Positions 37,824-62,340 of a stretch of 64,000 nt of DNA are shown piece by piece (position 1 is the first letter of the stretch; each line of letters opens with the position of its first letter). Source of the stretch: Heliophilum fasciatum. GTDB taxonomy: Bacteria > Bacillota > Desulfitobacteriia > Heliobacteriales > Heliobacteriaceae. A program made the position numbers and the translations under genes. Below the pieces are notes generated by a model. That model did not search any database, was not told where the DNA came from, and was given only the letters and a program-made list of their open reading frames with translations. The DNA is taken from NCBI RefSeq assembly GCF_004341395.1, contig NZ_SLXT01000016.1:1-64000 (forward strand), given 5' to 3'.

Positions 37824-39095
37824 TTATGTTTCATTAGAGATTGATTGTTGATACCAACGGGGAATGACCTCACGCAGTTTTTCCGGATTTACAGGCTTGC
37901 TGATATAGTCATCCATGCCGGATGCTAAGCAACGCTCCTGGTCACCTTGCATCGCATTGGCCGTCATAGCCACAATCGGCAAATGGCGTCCAGTGTTTTG
38001 CTCTGACAGACGAATTTGCCTCGTTGCTTCAAAACCGTCCATCTCCGGCATCTGACAGTCCATCAAAACCAAGGCGTAATCACCATTGGCACAAGCTTCT
38101 ACTGCCTCCAGTCCATTATTTACAGCAACCGTTCGATAGCCAAGTTTTTTGAGTAAAAGCACAGCCAGCTTTTGATTCGCCCGGTTGTCTTCAGCCAAAA
38201 GAATCGGCTTTTCCTTTTGATCAACCAGTTCCTTCGCAGGTTCATTGGCTGGCTCTTTCACCATCGGTGGGGTCGTTTCATGGTGGGCGGCAGAGGCTAA
38301 TTTTGCAATCATCTCGAGAAGCTGCGATTGCTTGATCGGCTTGGGTAAATAGGCGTGAAAACCACGACGCAGTGCGTGCTCACCTTTTGTGCGATCATTA
38401 AAACCAGTGACCAAGATCCATTTGACATCCGACAATCCTGGAACACGTTGCAACTGCTCTACTTGCTCTAATTCTTTTTCGTCCGCTGTTTCTCCTTCAA
38501 CAATCACCAAGTTATAAGCAGCGGAGATCGATGGTTGCGGTTGGATCAATTGCCACGCCTCTTGGGCATCAGCAGCAAAAGCATTGGTGAACTCCCAAGC
38601 ATTTAAATATTGATGAATGACTTCAAGGGCACCTTGATTTTTCCCCATCAATAGAATACGTAAATCGGGAAGCCGTTTTTTCGGCGACGGTGCTTCTGCC
38701 TCCAGATCGCTGCGCTGAAGGGGAATCTCTACCCAGAAGGTCGAACCGTGACCTAATTCACTCTCCACGCCAATGGAACCATGCATCATTTCAACCAAGC
38801 GCTTCGAGATGGAAAGGCCCAATCCCGTTCCGCCATACTTGCGTGTTGTCGAACCGTCCGCTTGTGTAAACGGTTGGAATAAGCGTTGTTTCGCTTCGTC
38901 CGACAATCCAATACCGGTGTCACGTACCTCAAACCGCACAAGCACATGGTGATCGTCACTACCGGCAACCGTGGCGACTAAGGACACTTTGCCTTGATTG
39001 GTAAATTTAACGGCGTTGCCTGCAAGATTGAGTAAAATTTGCCGGATCCGCAAGGGGTCCCCGACGAGAAGCGGAGGAATTTGGGGGGGCAACAA
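37824..39095 (-). pseudogene. hybrid histidine kinase, C-terminal part (frameshifted)
   Basis: Second half of one kinase gene whose frame is broken in the C7 run at 39083-39089. With one C removed, VAPPNSS becomes [20 protein letters not shown] and joins smoothly. It carries the ATPase domain ([39 protein letters not shown]), a degenerate receiver (about 150-270, no phosphoacceptor Asp, but AYLPKPIK kept), and a canonical receiver ([36 protein letters not shown]). The full-length protein would be near 935 residues. Either a sequencing or assembly error or a true mutation explains the shift. Confidence 0.88.
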
Positions 39096-40644
39096 AGGTC
39101 ATAAAACTGATGTTTTTTTCATGTGTTTTGGCCACCAGCATCTCCGTGATGCTCTCAACTACATTGAGCATCGAGAAATCTGTTGATTCCAAATCCATCT
39201 TGTCCGCTTCCATTTTGGAAAAATCCAAAATATCATTGATAATTGTCAATAACGAGTTCGCCGATTCACGGACAATCAAAGCAAACTCTCGCTGCTCGCT
39301 GTTGAGGGGCGTATCAATCAAAAGCCCCGTCATACCGATGATGGCATTCATCGGTGTCCGGATTTCATGGCTCATGTTGGCGACAAATTCTGACTTAAGC
39401 CGATTAGATTTTTCCGCTTCTTCTTTGGCGACGAGTAACTCACTATTCAGCTTTTCCAGGTTCATCGCTAATTGCGTTTGTTTTTCGATAGCCTGCAACA
39501 GTTCTTCATCGGTTTTTTTCTTTTCGGCCAGGCTATCTAAAAAGGTGTTAAACCAACGGATCAATTCACCGATCTCGTCACGGGGTCCTTCTTTCAAGCG
39601 AGTTTCATAATCAATCGTCCCTTTGCCGATTTCTTGAAACAAATGGGTGATGCGCTTGATCGGCATTACGTTTTGCCGGGTAAATCTATAACCAAGGAAA
39701 ACCGCAAAAGCAATCGATAAAAACAGCAACAGCAAGGTGTTATCGCGAATTTCTGTCGTGTTTTCAGTAAGCCTATCGAGCGGCACAAAACAAAGCAAGG
39801 ACCATCCACTGTTGACAGAGTGACTATGGGTGATGAACATGTCTTTCCCATCAATATTGGCATTGACAGCATGTCGATCACCATCAAAACACGCTAATAG
39901 GCTTGCGTTGATCCGGCTGCCGATTTTTTCTTTTTGAGGATGGAAGATGATGCGTCCTTTGCTGTCCACAATGACCATGAAGGCATCGCGGCCAAAATTG
40001 GTTTGGATAAAATGCTCATAAAAAGTGTCTACACTGTAGTTGACGAGCAATAAACCAATCGGCCTTTCACGCATCGTCTCTGAATCAAAGGACTTTAACA
40101 CCTTGGCCGCTGTAATCACTTGCTTATGTGTCGAGTTGGCATTGACATTATCTTCAATGCCTGTCCAAATGACTGACTTATCAGTGGTAAGCGCTTCCTG
40201 ATAAATCTTTTCTTTTAGATCGTTGCGGATTGTCTGAACATTTAAGGTATCACCAACATGATAATGGGCATCATTCAACGTGAAAATATCGATGGACACA
40301 AGACCTTTGAGGTTTGTATAGCCGCTTAAGATATAGCCGATTTTCGCTTGCGTAGCCAGACTGGCATAATCACTGGGTGTTCGCTGCCGATCATCGACGA
40401 CGGCTTTAATATCTTCAATGCTGGAGATATTAGCGATCAAACTCTCGACTTCCTGCATCATCCGTTCCATGTAGTCGCGCTGATTACCTACCAGTTCACT
40501 GGTAAAATTACCGGCTTCCTCTTGAATGATGGTTTTTGAGATGCTGTACGATGTCATACCGACCACCATCAGCGGGATGATGCTTGTCGTTAACAAGTAA
40601 AAAATAAATCTCTGGGTGATATTAAGGCTTGGTAATTTATTCAT
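39007..40644 (-). pseudogene. hybrid histidine kinase, N-terminal part (frameshifted)
   Basis: First half of the same gene. A membrane helix ([18 protein letters not shown]), a large extracytoplasmic dCache-like sensor (about 35-290), a second helix ([19 protein letters not shown]), HAMP linker (about 315-365), coiled coil and the dimerisation domain with the phosphorylated His in [18 protein letters not shown]. The true frame leaves at the C7 run at 39083-39089; the final residues [11 protein letters not shown] are out of frame. It begins 23 bases after the substrate-binding lipoprotein gene with no clear SD, suggesting coupled expression and sensing through that protein. Confidence 0.88.
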
Positions 40645-55489: not shown

Positions 55490-57358
55490 TCACGTACCCA
55501 AATGGCTGTGGAGCATCGTTTTTAACCCTTCGAATTTTATCGGCTTACTCATGTAATCATCCATACCGGCTTGCAAGCAACGCTGGCGATCCTCTTCCAT
55601 CGCATGGGCTGTCATCGCGATGATCGGCACGTGGGTGTTTTTCTCTCTTTCTTTTTGCCGGATGAGTTGCGTTGCCGTAAGCCCGTCCATGTTCGGCATT
55701 TGACAATCCATAAGGACAAGAACGAACGACTGCTGCTCCAGTGCCTGGAGCGCTTCCTGGCCATCTTTGACACAATGAACCGTATAGCCAAGTTTACGCA
55801 ACTGCACTTTGATTAATAATTGATCAATCGAGTTGTCTTCCACGACCAGAATCGTTGGTTTCTGGCGCTGCTCTTCCATCAGATTCGCACCGGCTGTAAC
55901 ACTTTGAGAAAGAACATCCTGGTTGGGAGAAAGCGTCGTTTCCGCAAAATCCTGCGAAGCGCCGTTGACAAGGGGCAGCGTAAACCAAAAGGTGGAGCCT
56001 TTTCCCCATTCACTTTGAACGCCAATTCTTCCACCCATCAGTTCAACTAACCGCTTGGAGATCGAAAGGCCCAGCCCCGTACCACCGTAGGTTTGCGTGC
56101 GCAAATCATGAACTTGAGAAAAGGGTTGAAACAACTGAGAGAGCGCTTCGGAATCCATGCCCACACCGGTATCGCTGATTTCAAATCGAAGCACCGAGTT
56201 GCCTTTTTCCTCTTGTTCAGGAAAAACAGACAACGAAACTTTGCCTTCGTGCGTAAATTTAATGGCATTACCCATCAGATTCAGCAGAACCTGGCGAAGA
56301 CGTACGGGATCAGTAATGATCACTTGCTCCGCGTCCAATTCAACAGTGGCCTCCAGGGCAATCCCCTTAGCTTTTGCCGTTTGGTCAAGCAGATCAATGA
56401 CACCGGAGATCAGCCCTTGGGGAATGATTTCAATCTTGTTGATCACCAGATTGCCCGATTCAATTTTCGATAGATCCAAAATATCATTGATGATGGTCAA
56501 TAAGGCATTGGACGACTCATAGATCGTCTTGGCATAATACTGTTGCTCCCGCGAAAGCGCTGTATCCATCATTAATTCCGTCATCCCGAGAATCCCATTC
56601 ATGGGAGTGCGGATCTCATGGCTCATATTGGCAAGGAAAATACTTTTGGCCCGGTTTGCAGCTTCTGCAGCTGCTTCTTCCATTTTAGCAATTTTAAGCT
56701 TTTCCAGCGTTGAAGCGAGCTCGATGTTGGCATTGGTTAGTTTCTCAATTTTTTCTTCAATTTTGTCGATGGTTCGATTGATGAAAAAACTAAGCCGTTT
56801 ATCGAATCCAGCTTCACCGGCGTCCATTGCTCTTTTTTCGGAGTATGCCGGGGTGTAACTGACGCCATACTTTTGCAATTCATTGACAAGCAATTCAACG
56901 GCTTGATGAACTACAAAAGGTGAGAAGCTTAAGAAGCCCTCAAATTTACGCATACCGTCCTCGCAAGATTGATTCAACTCGTACAATTCTCTTGCGGTGA
57001 AAATAGCATATTGCTCAGGATGACACAAAATGACATTCCATTCATGACAAAGCACCGAATCAGGATCAAGCTCAATAAAGATCGTATTTTGAAAATCAGA
57101 AACATCATCAAGATTTATGTTTCTGGCAAATGCAAAAACTCTCTTGCAAATTTTATCTATCTTTTTATAGCGTTCTTTTTCGTGTAAAAAGAACTTCCAT
57201 TCTTGAAAAAAGACATACATTTCAGCTTGAAGGCCAAAATCAGAAACAAAATCTTCAATCGCATAACTTATCGCGAGCATCGTCGATTTGTTGTATATTT
57301 TATTATTTAAACTTGACACATTTTCAGATATTTTCTTATACAAACTTTTTGATTCCAT
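55490..57358 (-). CDS. hybrid histidine kinase with uncharacterised N-terminal sensor
   Basis: A 622-residue cytoplasmic hybrid kinase. Residues 1-200 hold a sensor without membrane helices ([40 protein letters not shown]) that loosely recalls DICT domains; then a coiled coil, the dimerisation domain with His in [19 protein letters not shown], the ATPase domain ([43 protein letters not shown]) and one receiver ([35 protein letters not shown]). ATG at 57358 has GGAG 5 bases upstream. It follows the PAS kinase by 54 bases. No output regulator adjoins it. Confidence 0.9.
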
Positions 57359-57412
57359 TATATCTCCATTCAATTCGTAATCCTCTTACAGATTAGAGGA
57401 AAACCTTTATTG

Positions 57413-59062
57413 TTAGTTGTTTACCGGTACGATCGATTTTTTATGCCATGGTTGGATCTTTTCAAGCGCAACGAAATGGGGCGACTCGATCATGGGGATG
57501 GAAAACCAAAAAGTCGAGCCAACACCGGCCTTACTTTGAGCGCCATATTGACCGCCCATCATTTCGACTAATCGCTTCGCCAGGGATAACCCCAAGCCAA
57601 TGCCACCAAATTTTCGGGTTAACGAACCATCGATCTGCGTAAAGGGTTCCGCTAATCGCTGCAAATCTTCTTCATCAATACCGATTCCCGTGTCGGTCAC
57701 TTCAAAATAAAGCTCTTTTTGTTCCTCTTTGGTCTTTAGAGCAAAAACCCGCAGCGCTATATAACCTTCGGCGGTAAACTTAACGGCATTGTCCAAAATA
57801 TTCATCAGGATTTGGCGAAGTCGAAGCGGATCACCCAGGATCACCGTGTGCGGTTCTAATTCGATCGAAGTTTTGACAGCAATACCCTTCGCATCGGCAA
57901 AACCTTGGATGTTCAAAATTACATCGTTGATTAATTCATCAAGAATGAGTTCCACTTTCTCGATAGTCACACAAGAATCAAGCTTGGAATAATCAAGAAC
58001 GCTGTTAATGATCCGCAATAGTTCATTCGTGGAATTCTTAATTACTTGAGCATATTCTTTAACTTCTTCCGGCAACGGCGTATCCAAAATCAAATCGGCC
58101 ATTCCCATAATTCCATTCATGGGTGTTCGAATCTCATGACTCATGTTTGCCATAAATTGGTTTTTAGTGTTATTGGCTGCTTCCGCACGTTCTTTGGCAC
58201 GTCGTAATTCTTTCAATACAGCTTTTTGGTCAGTAATATCTTCAGCCGTACAAACAACATATTCGACGTTTTGCGCTGCGTCCAGCTTTGGTGTACGGGT
58301 AACCAGCAAAATCCGTTCCAGGCCTTGCCGATCTATCATCCGTTCTTCCACAACAGTTTTCTTTTTTTCGATATATACCCGGCGATTTTCCGCAATGCAG
58401 ACTTGGGCATTATCGGGACCAATCAGTTCAAAAAGACTTTTTCCTTTGCATTCTTCGATCGTTCGGCCCATAAAGTTGGCATGGGACTGGTTAAGTGCCC
58501 CATACTTATCTTCTTCGATGAGATACCATATTTGCAAATCCGTATTATCTAATAATAATTGCTGTTGTGCTAACGTTTCCTGGATCGCTCGCTGATAACG
58601 TGTAATATCCCGGCAAAGACCGATCACACCTTGGAGCGTGCCGTCAGTTCCCATCAGTGGGGCGCGAATCGTCTCCAACAGCACTTTACGCCCATCGGCA
58701 TAAGTGATCCATTCTTCTGTTTTGAAAGGTTTTCTCTCGTTCATGACTTGGATATCGGATCGGCGATAACGCTCGGCAATCTCGGCAGGAAAGAAGTCAT
58801 AATCGGTTTTACCGATCATGGTACTGGCATCAATCTGAACATAATCAGACAATGCTTGATTACCGCCCAAATAAATACCATCACGATCTTTGATATAAAA
58901 AATATCTGGTAACGCATCAAGAAATCGTTCTGGGATGACCTCTTTCATTGTAATGATTTTTTTATAAATTGATTGGTATTCTACTTGGAGATCGGTATAT
59001 TTTTTTTGTAAGAGTGCAAGTTCTTCCATTAGTTGATCTTTACTTTTATCTTTCGCTTCCAT
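57413..59062 (-). CDS. PAS-PAS sensor histidine kinase
   Basis: A 549-residue soluble kinase. A short coiled coil, two PAS domains (about 45-160, [25 protein letters not shown] to [10 protein letters not shown]; and about 165-280, [24 protein letters not shown] to [10 protein letters not shown]), then the His in [19 protein letters not shown] and an ATPase domain ([44 protein letters not shown]). No receiver and no membrane helix, so it senses a cytoplasmic cue such as redox state. ATG at 59062 follows AGGTGG. It is divergent from the hydrogenase genes and leads the second kinase. Confidence 0.93.
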
Positions 59063-59167
59063 AACAATTCCACCTACTTTCATTTGTTTTGAGGAATGTA
59101 TATTTTCAGCATTTTTTTCATATATGGCAGGATCAATCTTTGAGCGAGTAATTAGAGGTATTATTAA

Positions 59168-59226: not shown

Positions 59227-59385
59227 GTAGCTTGCAAAGCACCTTTAATTTTTTCATATTTTTTTCATGCAACCTGCTCGAATATCCGTTATGATGAATA
59301 TGTATATCCCTGCCAAAATTGCTTCCAAGACTGGCGTTGCCGGCAAAAGGGAGCAATGGTTGAGAGAATAGGAGGTCCGTTTCTT

Positions 59386-60522
59386 ATGCCGGAAAACCAT
59401 CGTAATCATCCCATTACTACCAGCCCTGCCGACCAACAGATCCATCATCAAGATCAGGCGACCGAACCTGCAACAGACGATCGGGGAATGCACCCCGAAA
59501 GCGCCTGGGCGCACCTGCAAAAACGCGGGATCAGCCGTCGCCGTTTTCTTGAATTTTGCACAGCCATGACGGTTATGATCGGACTCGAAACCAGCAGCAC
59601 CCTTTCCATCGCTGAAGCGCTGACCACGCAACCGCGCCCTGTTGTGATCTGGCGCAATTTTCAAGAATGCACTTGCTGCTCAGAATCATTATTGCGTTCG
59701 GAAAAAACACCCTTCAGCGATATCATCCTCAATCTCATCTCGCTGGATTTTCATGAAGTACTGCAAGCAGCGGCCGGTATTGACGCCGAGAGGGCAGCGC
59801 ACCAAGCTATGGCCGCCAACGCCGGTCGTTACATCCTAGCGATCGAAGGCTCCATCCCCACCGGGGCCAACGGCACCTACTGCTGTGTCGGTGGACGAAC
59901 AGCGCTGGATATCTTGCAAGAAGACGTCCGGGGCGCCAAAGCGGTCATTGCTTGGGGTAACTGCGCCGCTTATGGCTGTGTGCAAAGCGCCAAGCCCAAT
60001 CCTACCGGCGCAAAGGGCGTTGGTGAACTCGTCAAGGACAAGCCGGTGATCAACGTACCCGGTTGCCCGCCGATTGCTGAAGTCATGGCCGCTGTTGTCA
60101 TTCAAATTGCCACGGGCACGTTCCCCAAGCTCGATCAGCAAGGCCGGCCCGTTGAATTTTATGGAAAAACAGTGCACGCCACCTGCCCGCGGCATGACCA
60201 TTACGAAGAAGGCCGCTTTGTGGAATCTTTTGATGACGACGGTGCACGTCAAGGGTATTGCCTCTATAAGCTCGGATGCAAAGGCCCGGTTACGTATAAC
60301 GCCTGTTCTCGGTTGCGCTGGAACGGCGGTACATCCTTCCCCATCCAGTCAGGTCATCCCTGCCTCGGTTGCGCCGAGAAAAACTGCTGGGATCCTGCCG
60401 ATGGCCAATCGCTTTATGCTCCCGTGGCGATGACTTCCCGTTCGCCCAAAGGGGGCTCTTCATCCGGTTCCAAGGCATCATCAAGAAAAAATTGGTCACC
60501 CATCCGTTCACACTCGTCGTAA
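59386..60522 (+). CDS. hupS: uptake [NiFe] hydrogenase small subunit, six-Cys proximal cluster
   Basis: FeS subunit of a group 1 hydrogenase. A long Tat signal has SRRRFLEF at 50-57. Cys95, 97, 98, 193, 198 and 227 (ECTCCSES, WGNCAAYGC, VPGCPPI) correspond, at a constant offset of 78, to Cys17, 19, 20, 115, 120 and 149 of E. coli HyaA, the ligands of the oxygen-tolerant [4Fe-3S] cluster. Distal (VHATC, GYCLYKLGC) and medial (NAC, CLGC) ligands follow. Phe of the usual FWD is Cys334. The Ser/Lys-rich tail has no membrane helix. ATG at 59386 has AGGAGG 10 bases upstream. 378 residues. Confidence 0.93.
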   Translation: MPENHRNHPITTSPADQQIHHQDQATEPATDDRGMHPESAWAHLQKRGISRRRFLEFCTAMTVMIGLETSSTLSIAEALTTQPRPVVIWRNFQECTCCSESLLRSEKTPFSDIILNLISLDFHEVLQAAAGIDAERAAHQAMAANAGRYILAIEGSIPTGANGTYCCVGGRTALDILQEDVRGAKAVIAWGNCAAYGCVQSAKPNPTGAKGVGELVKDKPVINVPGCPPIAEVMAAVVIQIATGTFPKLDQQGRPVEFYGKTVHATCPRHDHYEEGRFVESFDDDGARQGYCLYKLGCKGPVTYNACSRLRWNGGTSFPIQSGHPCLGCAEKNCWDPADGQSLYAPVAMTSRSPKGGSSSGSKASSRKNWSPIRSHSS

Positions 60523-60561
60523 CAAGTAGCAAATTGATTAAAAATACAAGGAGGCGCCTTC

Positions 60562-62340
60562 ATGGCCAATCGAATTGTTATTGACCCTGTAACGCGGATT
60601 GAAGGCCACTTACGGGTAGAAGCCAAAATCGATCAAGGACGTATCGTCGACGCGGTTTCGGCCGGTACGATGATCCGCGGTATCGAATTGATCCTGCAAG
60701 ATCGCGACCCACGGGACGCTTGGGCACTTGTCCAGCGCATCTGCGGCGTCTGCACCACCGTTCATGCACTCACGTCCCTGCGGGCCGTAGAAAATGCGCT
60801 GCAAGTGACGGTCCCGCGCAACGCCGAGATCATCCGCAACATCCTGCACAGTTCGTTGCTGGTTCATGATCATGTAGTTCACTTTTATCATTTACATGCA
60901 CCCGATTGGGTCGACATTCCCCGTGCTCTCCAAGCCGACCCCAACGCTACGGCCGCACTGGCGCAACGGATTTCTCGTTGGCCCAAATCAAGTGCCGGCT
61001 ATTTCCGTGATGTCCAAGCCAAGCTGAAAACTTTTATCGACAGCGGTCAACTGGGCATTTTCAGCAACGGTTACTGGGGGCACAGCGCTTACCGACTGCC
61101 GGCGGAAGTAAATTTGCTCGCTGTGGCTCATTATCTGGAAGCCCTGGACTGGCAGCGTTCGATCGTCAAGATCCACGCCATCTTTGGCGGCAAAAACCCC
61201 CATCCCAACTATGTGGTTGGCGGCATGGCTTGTTCTTTTGCCGCTCCCGCCGGTACCGACAACGAAATCGAAGAAAATGAAGAAAACGAAGCCAGCCAAA
61301 CGATTACACAGGAGCAGTTAGCCTACGTCGGCACGATCATCAACGAAGCGATTGAATTTGTCGAACAAGTATATAAGCCCGATCTTCTGCTCATCGGTTC
61401 TTATTACAAGGAAGCAGCCACTTATGGCGCCGGACCAGGCCACTACTTAGCTTATGGCGACTTACCTACCGGCAGTATCAATGACATCAACTCCTACTTG
61501 CTGCCGCGCGGCATCATCACTCATGGCAACTTAAACGCCGTGTTAGACGTGAACCTCAACGACACTTCGCAGATCCGTGAATATACGGAACACTCCTGGT
61601 ATGCCAACTCCCGCAGCGGCCTGCATCCTTCGAGCGGTGAAACACGCCTGGCCTACGGTGGTCCGACACCACCTTATGAAACGTTAGACCCAAGCGGAGA
61701 ATTCAACGGCAAATATTCCTGGCTCAAATCGCCACGCTGGCGCGACCTGCCTATGGAAGTCGGTCCGCTGGCCCGCATGCTCGTCGCCTACGCCAAAAAA
61801 TCAGCTCCCAGCCATGCTGCGGTGCGCGACAGCGTCGACAGCGTGCTCCGCAAGCTGAACCTCGCGCCCAAAGATTTGGCCTCGACACTGGGACGGATGG
61901 CCGCTCGCGGCATTGAAACGGGTCTCGCTGTTCACTGGCTCAAAGACTATTACGATCAATTGCTCCGCAACATCAAAGGCGGCGACATCACTACCTTCGA
62001 CCCGACCATCTGGGAAAAGCTCAAGACCGCTAAAAGCAACAGCGGCGTCGGTTGGTGCGAAGCGCCGCGGGGCGCACTCGGCCATTGGGTGCAGATCAAG
62101 AACAGCAAAATCAGCAACTACCAGTGCGTTGTGCCGACGACCTGGAACGGCTCACCACGGGATCACAAAAACCAAAAAGGTGCACTGGAAACGGCGTTGA
62201 TCGGCACACCGATCGCCAACGAAAAGAAGCCGTTGGAACTGTTGCGCACGATTCACTCCTTTGATCCCTGCCTCGCTTGCGCCGCCCATTTGACCGACAC
62301 AACCGGGCAGACGGTGACAGCGATTACGGTGACACCGTAA
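60562..62340 (+). CDS. hupL: uptake [NiFe] hydrogenase large subunit
   Basis: Catalytic subunit holding the NiFe site. RICGVCTTVH (Cys61, Cys64) is the L1 motif and DPCLACAAH (Cys570, Cys573, His576) the L2 motif, so all four metal cysteines are present. A 16-residue tail after His576 is the peptide that a maturation endopeptidase removes. 592 residues, ATG 7 bases after AAGGAGG, 39 bases after hupS. With Tat transport through the small subunit, the enzyme should oxidise H2 outside the membrane. No hupC, hupD or hyp genes follow in the window. Confidence 0.95.
   Translation: MANRIVIDPVTRIEGHLRVEAKIDQGRIVDAVSAGTMIRGIELILQDRDPRDAWALVQRICGVCTTVHALTSLRAVENALQVTVPRNAEIIRNILHSSLLVHDHVVHFYHLHAPDWVDIPRALQADPNATAALAQRISRWPKSSAGYFRDVQAKLKTFIDSGQLGIFSNGYWGHSAYRLPAEVNLLAVAHYLEALDWQRSIVKIHAIFGGKNPHPNYVVGGMACSFAAPAGTDNEIEENEENEASQTITQEQLAYVGTIINEAIEFVEQVYKPDLLLIGSYYKEAATYGAGPGHYLAYGDLPTGSINDINSYLLPRGIITHGNLNAVLDVNLNDTSQIREYTEHSWYANSRSGLHPSSGETRLAYGGPTPPYETLDPSGEFNGKYSWLKSPRWRDLPMEVGPLARMLVAYAKKSAPSHAAVRDSVDSVLRKLNLAPKDLASTLGRMAARGIETGLAVHWLKDYYDQLLRNIKGGDITTFDPTIWEKLKTAKSNSGVGWCEAPRGALGHWVQIKNSKISNYQCVVPTTWNGSPRDHKNQKGALETALIGTPIANEKKPLELLRTIHSFDPCLACAAHLTDTTGQTVTAITVTP

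Follow-up and report, generated by a model that had tools for sequence, protein, structure and literature searches.

A hydrogenase gene pair with a six-cysteine proximal cluster

The window analyzed here, a 64-kb stretch of contig 16 (71 kb) of the Heliophilum fasciatum genome assembly (3,142,229 bases, 73 contigs), carries a [NiFe] hydrogenase gene pair. The first gene (59386..60522, + strand) encodes a HupS-like small subunit of 378 aa, of the six-Cys type and without a C-terminal anchor, identified by matches to TIGR00391 (402 bits versus a cut-off of 179.5), PF14720 and PF01058 and by PDB matches to HoxK and Hyd-1. Direct reading of the sequence places a ribosome-binding site, AGGAGGT (59370..59376, +), 9 bases upstream of the ATG start at 59386. 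The small subunit presents a Tat signal with the twin-arginine motif S-R-R-R-F-L-E (59533..59553, +), whose two aligned Arg residues and Phe are invariant in the alignment, and TatC is encoded in the genome. A scan for promoters and terminators returned matches at chance level only.

Alignment with E. coli (K-12) HyaA and C. necator HoxK defines the ligands of the proximal cluster. The CTCC motif (59668..59679, +) contributes Cys95, Cys97 and Cys98, a second segment (59962..59979, +) contributes Cys193 and Cys198, and the set is completed by Cys227 (60064..60066, +). As claimed in the preliminary description, these residues correspond column by column to Cys17/19/20/115/120/149 of HyaA at an offset of 78 throughout, with Cys97 (Cys19) and Cys198 (Cys120) as the supernumerary pair; the same six also align with Cys17/19/20/115/120/149 of HoxK. 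All 13 Fe-S ligands are present in the alignment, including the seven of the medial and distal clusters. A comparison with the PDB ranks O2-tolerant enzymes at the top, namely HoxK, Hyd-1 and H. marinus MBH (E about 1e-96 to 1e-95); matches to standard periplasmic or Hyd-2 enzymes are weaker (E about 1e-75). Judged by these alignments, the resemblance to the O2-tolerant hydrogenases is one of homology, not of chance. An AlphaFold2 model calculated on 26 sequences reached a mean pLDDT of 56, with values below 50 in the C-terminal third, and was left unused.

The second gene (60562..62340, +) follows with its own ribosome-binding site, AAGGAGG (60548..60554, +, direct sequence reading), and encodes a HupL-like large subunit of 592 aa, recognized by PF00374 (712.6 bits) and by its active-site columns. 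The [NiFe] ligands are intact, all sampled [NiFe] active-site residues are kept, His229 is present, and a cleavable C-terminal extension begins after DPCLACAAH. The position of Glu73 in E. coli HyaB (for its role see PMC3940037) is occupied in the alignment by Gln58 (60733..60735, +). Near residue 235 the large subunit (60562-62340) also has an insert, acidic and about a dozen residues long (DNEIEENEENEASQ), that is absent from the second copy of the pair in the genome, on contig C25. The cysteine alignment, together with the placement of the large subunit among six-Cys enzymes in the tree, upholds the earlier reading that this spore-forming Firmicute encodes a six-Cys, 1d-like hydrogenase of group 1.

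Neighboring histidine kinase genes

Two histidine kinase genes adjoin the pair on the opposite strand; we regard them as context and do not claim them as part of the system. A soluble PAS-PAS histidine kinase (57413..59083, - strand; PF08448 twice, PF00512, PF02518) is transcribed divergently, and a DICT-domain hybrid histidine kinase with a receiver domain (55490..57373, -; PF10069, PF00512, PF02518, PF00072) lies beyond it. This arrangement, with the absence of an anchor, would be compatible with an H2 sensor that works with the divergent PAS kinase as HoxBC/HupUV do with HoxJ. Regulatory hydrogenases are not known to have a Tat signal or a cleavable large-subunit extension. Both are kept here, and related histidine kinases occur elsewhere in the window as well, so a sensor role is highly improbable. 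Elsewhere in the window (37824-40644, -), a histidine kinase gene is divided between two ORFs (545 and 423 aa) that overlap in different frames, resembling one frameshifted hybrid kinase.

The six-cysteine signature is the rule in this lineage

The preliminary description took the six cysteines as unusual for the lineage, which is not borne out: almost all of the best homologues from its class carry all six. They are present in all phototrophic heliobacteria of the class homologue set and in homologues from other Bacillota, Bacteroidota, Verrucomicrobiota and Acidobacteriota; one Bacillota family among the close homologues (f32) has four cysteines instead. In a further set from named genomes, found with alignment-derived patterns, 80 of 80 loci have six; this set counts as selected because one search pattern included CTCC. 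On these comparisons the signature is the rule and ordinary for this lineage. Group 1d hydrogenases have already been called common in Firmicutes (PMC11456536), HydDB gives the role of the group as aerobic respiration and oxygen-tolerant anaerobic respiration (PMC5037454), and in a 2015 survey anaerobes fell within the six-Cys group, where four-Cys Firmicute enzymes clustered as well (PMC4486115).

Two side observations concern this distribution. Two HupSL pairs occur in a member of the family without a convincing bchX (G003:C17; L045, L012). Their small subunits have Gly/Gly and Ala/Gly instead of the two supernumerary cysteines, and Glu73 is present in one of the large subunits, a pattern that is the reverse of that in the phototrophs. 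These four-Cys pairs may represent natural loss or an older state, and the trees favor neither. A complete operon for a six-Cys hydrogenase, hyp genes included, is found on a Parabacteroides distasonis record assigned to a plasmid (NZ_OY725764.1; L062); position 73 of its large subunit is Gly.

Loss of the membrane anchor and of the partner genes

At the position where homologues have a transmembrane helix, hydropathy and a reading-frame check reveal a replaced C-terminal tail rich in Ser, Lys and Arg (60418..60519, +). Its maximum 19-residue hydropathy is -0.23, compared with 1.2-2.1 in complete six-Cys homologues. The helix is found in all six-Cys small subunits of the class set except one cut by a contig end, in 77 of the 77 complete small subunits of the 80-locus set and in every phylum-wide six-Cys small subunit read; among about 120 compared, no complete six-Cys small subunit other than the window copy is without it. 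The partner genes are missing too: no hupC, hupD or hyp sequence or leftover (cytochrome b, maturation protease and hyp genes) occurs anywhere within the 64-kb window, and in every other heliobacterial HupSL pair hupC is adjacent. Of the features of a Hyd-1/MBH-type membrane complex, the Tat signal is present, and the C-terminal helix and a linked hyaC/hupC are absent.

An assembly or sequencing artefact could in principle mimic this loss, as the genome is a draft in many contigs and the tail looks non-native. The junction lies inside a 71-kb contig, the genome paper gives a coverage of 477x (PMC9147875), and hupC is absent as well. No reading frame near the junction encodes a helix, and therefore a simple frameshift is insufficient as an explanation; we reject it as the cause of the loss. 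Taken with these observations, an artefact has very little probability.

The preliminary description overlooked the lost anchor, the missing cytochrome b and the existence of a canonical second copy in the same genome.

A canonical second copy and the origin of the pair

Contig C25 of the same genome carries a complete hupS-hupL-hupC-hupD-hypA-hypB-hypF-hypD-hypE operon, with which the window pair shares 59% identity in the small subunit and 66% in the large. The H. fasciatum genome paper, in its available text, mentions a [Ni-Fe] uptake-type hydrogenase and does not describe this pair (PMC9147875). In H. modesticaldum, hupSL transcripts are 34- to 49-fold down in dark growth (PMC2887804); these genes do not represent the window copy.

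Two observations on other hydrogenase genes are recorded here. The canonical hup operon is immediately preceded by a MerR-type regulator with a B12-binding domain (L039, 4166-5080), as in the Heliobacterium and Heliomicrobium genomes; light- or B12-dependent control of hup through this regulator is conceivable. A third [NiFe] hydrogenase pair of the genome (L041, 7923-10225, G000:C2) is closest to NiFeSe types, with the four-Cys position pattern C-G-N-C; it has neither a Tat motif nor an anchor and is preceded by a cytochrome b5-like ORF.

The presence of HupC on C25 raises the alternative that the window enzyme, whose catalytic part is HupS-like, is an ordinary membrane-bound uptake hydrogenase that borrows this HupC in trans and docks without a helix of its own. 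Known complexes rely mainly on the small-subunit helix to connect the enzyme with cytochrome b. The window copy has diverged strongly from HupS, and no other hydrogenase-linked cytochrome b was found in the genome: the second cytochrome b561 (PF01292) match, on C32, adjoins a 4Fe-4S dicluster protein and was rejected as a partner. Borrowing of HupC thus appears improbable.

The large-subunit tree nests the window copy within the phototrophic heliobacteria (support 100/99), and a topology that unites it with the next Bacillota relatives is rejected (p-AU 0.005). Since the large subunit is nested in this way, the window pair is best read as a diverged heliobacterial duplicate. The position of the window copy in the small-subunit tree is unstable; a transfer from the next Bacillota relatives (G266, G381), weakly suggested there (88/86), is rejected by the large-subunit tree. 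The branches of the window copy are long, at 1.7-1.8 changes per site for the small subunit and 0.56-0.58 for the large, and the small subunit evolves much faster than its partner. It breaks six invariant columns, the most of any row among 49 sequences, which suggests relaxed or changed constraint.

These properties bear on the main rival reading, that of a decaying duplicate whose anchor was lost by deletion or frameshift and which is becoming a pseudogene with no present function. The very long small-subunit branch, the broken columns, the atypical codon-position GC of the tail (0.37/0.74/0.51) and a canonical C25 operon that makes the pair dispensable all speak for decay. Against it, both ORFs are intact and have good ribosome-binding sites, and the large subunit breaks only three otherwise invariant columns. 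Compared with C25, differences at the three codon positions amount to 0.29/0.22/0.63 in the small-subunit core and 0.27/0.20/0.58 in the large subunit, so that third positions dominate. This excess and the retention of every metal ligand argue that selection has acted on the protein through most of its history. On balance we judge decay rather unlikely.

Oxygen tolerance

The O2 tolerance of C. necator MBH depends on the two extra cysteines (PMC10583674), and in Salmonella Hyd-5 the large-subunit residues His229 and Glu73 are required as well (PMC3940037). His229 occurs universally. Glu73 characterizes O2-tolerant enzymes, and sensitive ones usually have Gln in its place; the glutamate is a correlate of tolerance that is not strictly defining (PMC3940037). 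The window large subunit has Gln at this position, as does every six-Cys enzyme examined from Bacillota. In Bacteroidota, the residue in six-Cys enzymes is Gly, Gln or Glu, and because aerobic Flavobacterium is among the bearers of Gln, residue 73 does not decide O2 tolerance.

Heliophilum fasciatum is a phototrophic, spore-forming heliobacterium known as a strict anaerobe, and bchX is present in its genome. Genes for cytochrome bd (E = 3.5e-166) and for a cbb3-like oxidase are present as well; the ccoN-like (319 bits) and ccoO-like (111 bits) matches of the latter both fall under the NCBIfam equivalog cut-offs. An electron sink for O2 therefore exists. From the sequence features, some O2 tolerance of the window enzyme is plausible. 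It may oxidize H2 under O2: the oxidase genes count for this activity, and Gln at the Glu73 position counts against it.

The cbb3-like cluster (L186/L188, G000:C24, about 16.9-19.6 kb) contains the ccoN- and ccoO-like genes, a monohaem cytochrome and a CcoG-like ferredoxin. Among nine genomes of the family, only Heliophilum fasciatum and Heliorestis acidaminivorans (G005) have a COX1-family gene. Cytochrome bd oxidase (L185, G000:C1:11333-12613; L191-L197) occurs in seven of nine Heliobacteriaceae genomes and is absent from both Heliorestis genomes.

A candidate soluble, exported six-cysteine hydrogenase

The six-Cys feature itself is real and typical of the lineage; what seems new is an anchorless second copy without an electron-accepting partner gene. 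We propose, with modest confidence, that the window pair is a six-Cys, group 1d-like heliobacterial HupSL duplicate that has turned into an anchorless exported enzyme, matured in trans and acting without HupC. Its large subunit would be processed in trans by HupD and the Hyp proteins of the C25 operon, and the dimer would be exported through Tat. H2 would then be oxidized outside the membrane via the [4Fe-3S] proximal cluster. Without HupC, the electrons would pass to a soluble or lipid-anchored acceptor and not directly to menaquinone; on the outer face the simplest such acceptor may be a c-type cytochrome. A precedent for the anchorless state exists in Salmonella Hyd-5, which remains active and becomes water-soluble when its helix is deliberately removed (PMC3940037). 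Three points weigh against the anchorless reading: the six broken columns and fast evolution of the small subunit also fit relaxed constraint, the small-subunit tree gives the copy no stable place, and a monoderm could lose an exported enzyme to the medium if nothing anchors it.

A more far-reaching version, which we consider doubtful, holds that evolution in a strictly anaerobic phototroph produced an exported, soluble six-Cys hydrogenase. This enzyme would bypass the quinone and deliver electrons from H2 through c-type cytochromes to the type I reaction center or, in O2, to the cbb3-like oxidase.

Discussion of the six-Cys cluster is usually confined to enzymes that have a membrane anchor and are coupled to cytochrome b. 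An anchorless version from nature would reveal whether the cluster functions in the absence of cytochrome b, and its purification would be easier. Bacillota enzymes that combine six cysteines with Gln73 would, moreover, split the contribution of the cluster to O2 tolerance from that of Glu73; an E73Q-like test of this residue was asked for by the authors of the Hyd-5 study (PMC3940037).

Comparison with known systems

The closest known system is the canonical heliobacterial HupSLC (C25; H. modesticaldum hupSL), which belongs to the same family as the window pair and has the same six cysteines, Tat signal, [NiFe] ligands and Gln at position 73. The helix, hupC, hupD and the hyp genes all go with the C25 copy; the window copy is without any of them and sits on a long branch. 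E. coli Hyd-1 and C. necator MBH, the O2-tolerant enzymes of HydDB group 1d, have in common with the window pair the six proximal ligands, the remaining Fe-S relay and the large-subunit His229. Compared with them, the window pair, at about 45-50% identity, has neither membrane helix nor cytochrome b and has Gln instead of Glu73. Regulatory hydrogenases (group 2b, HoxBC/HupUV) resemble the pair in the absence of a C-terminal helix and in nearby histidine kinase genes; its Tat signal and cleavable large-subunit extension set it apart from that group. The soluble periplasmic [NiFe] hydrogenases of Desulfovibrio are Tat-exported dimers without a membrane anchor, whose acceptor is a c-type cytochrome. 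These enzymes differ from the window pair by a four-Cys proximal cluster and by their place on another branch of group 1, and the likeness lies in the architecture predicted here, a Tat-exported, anchorless dimer.
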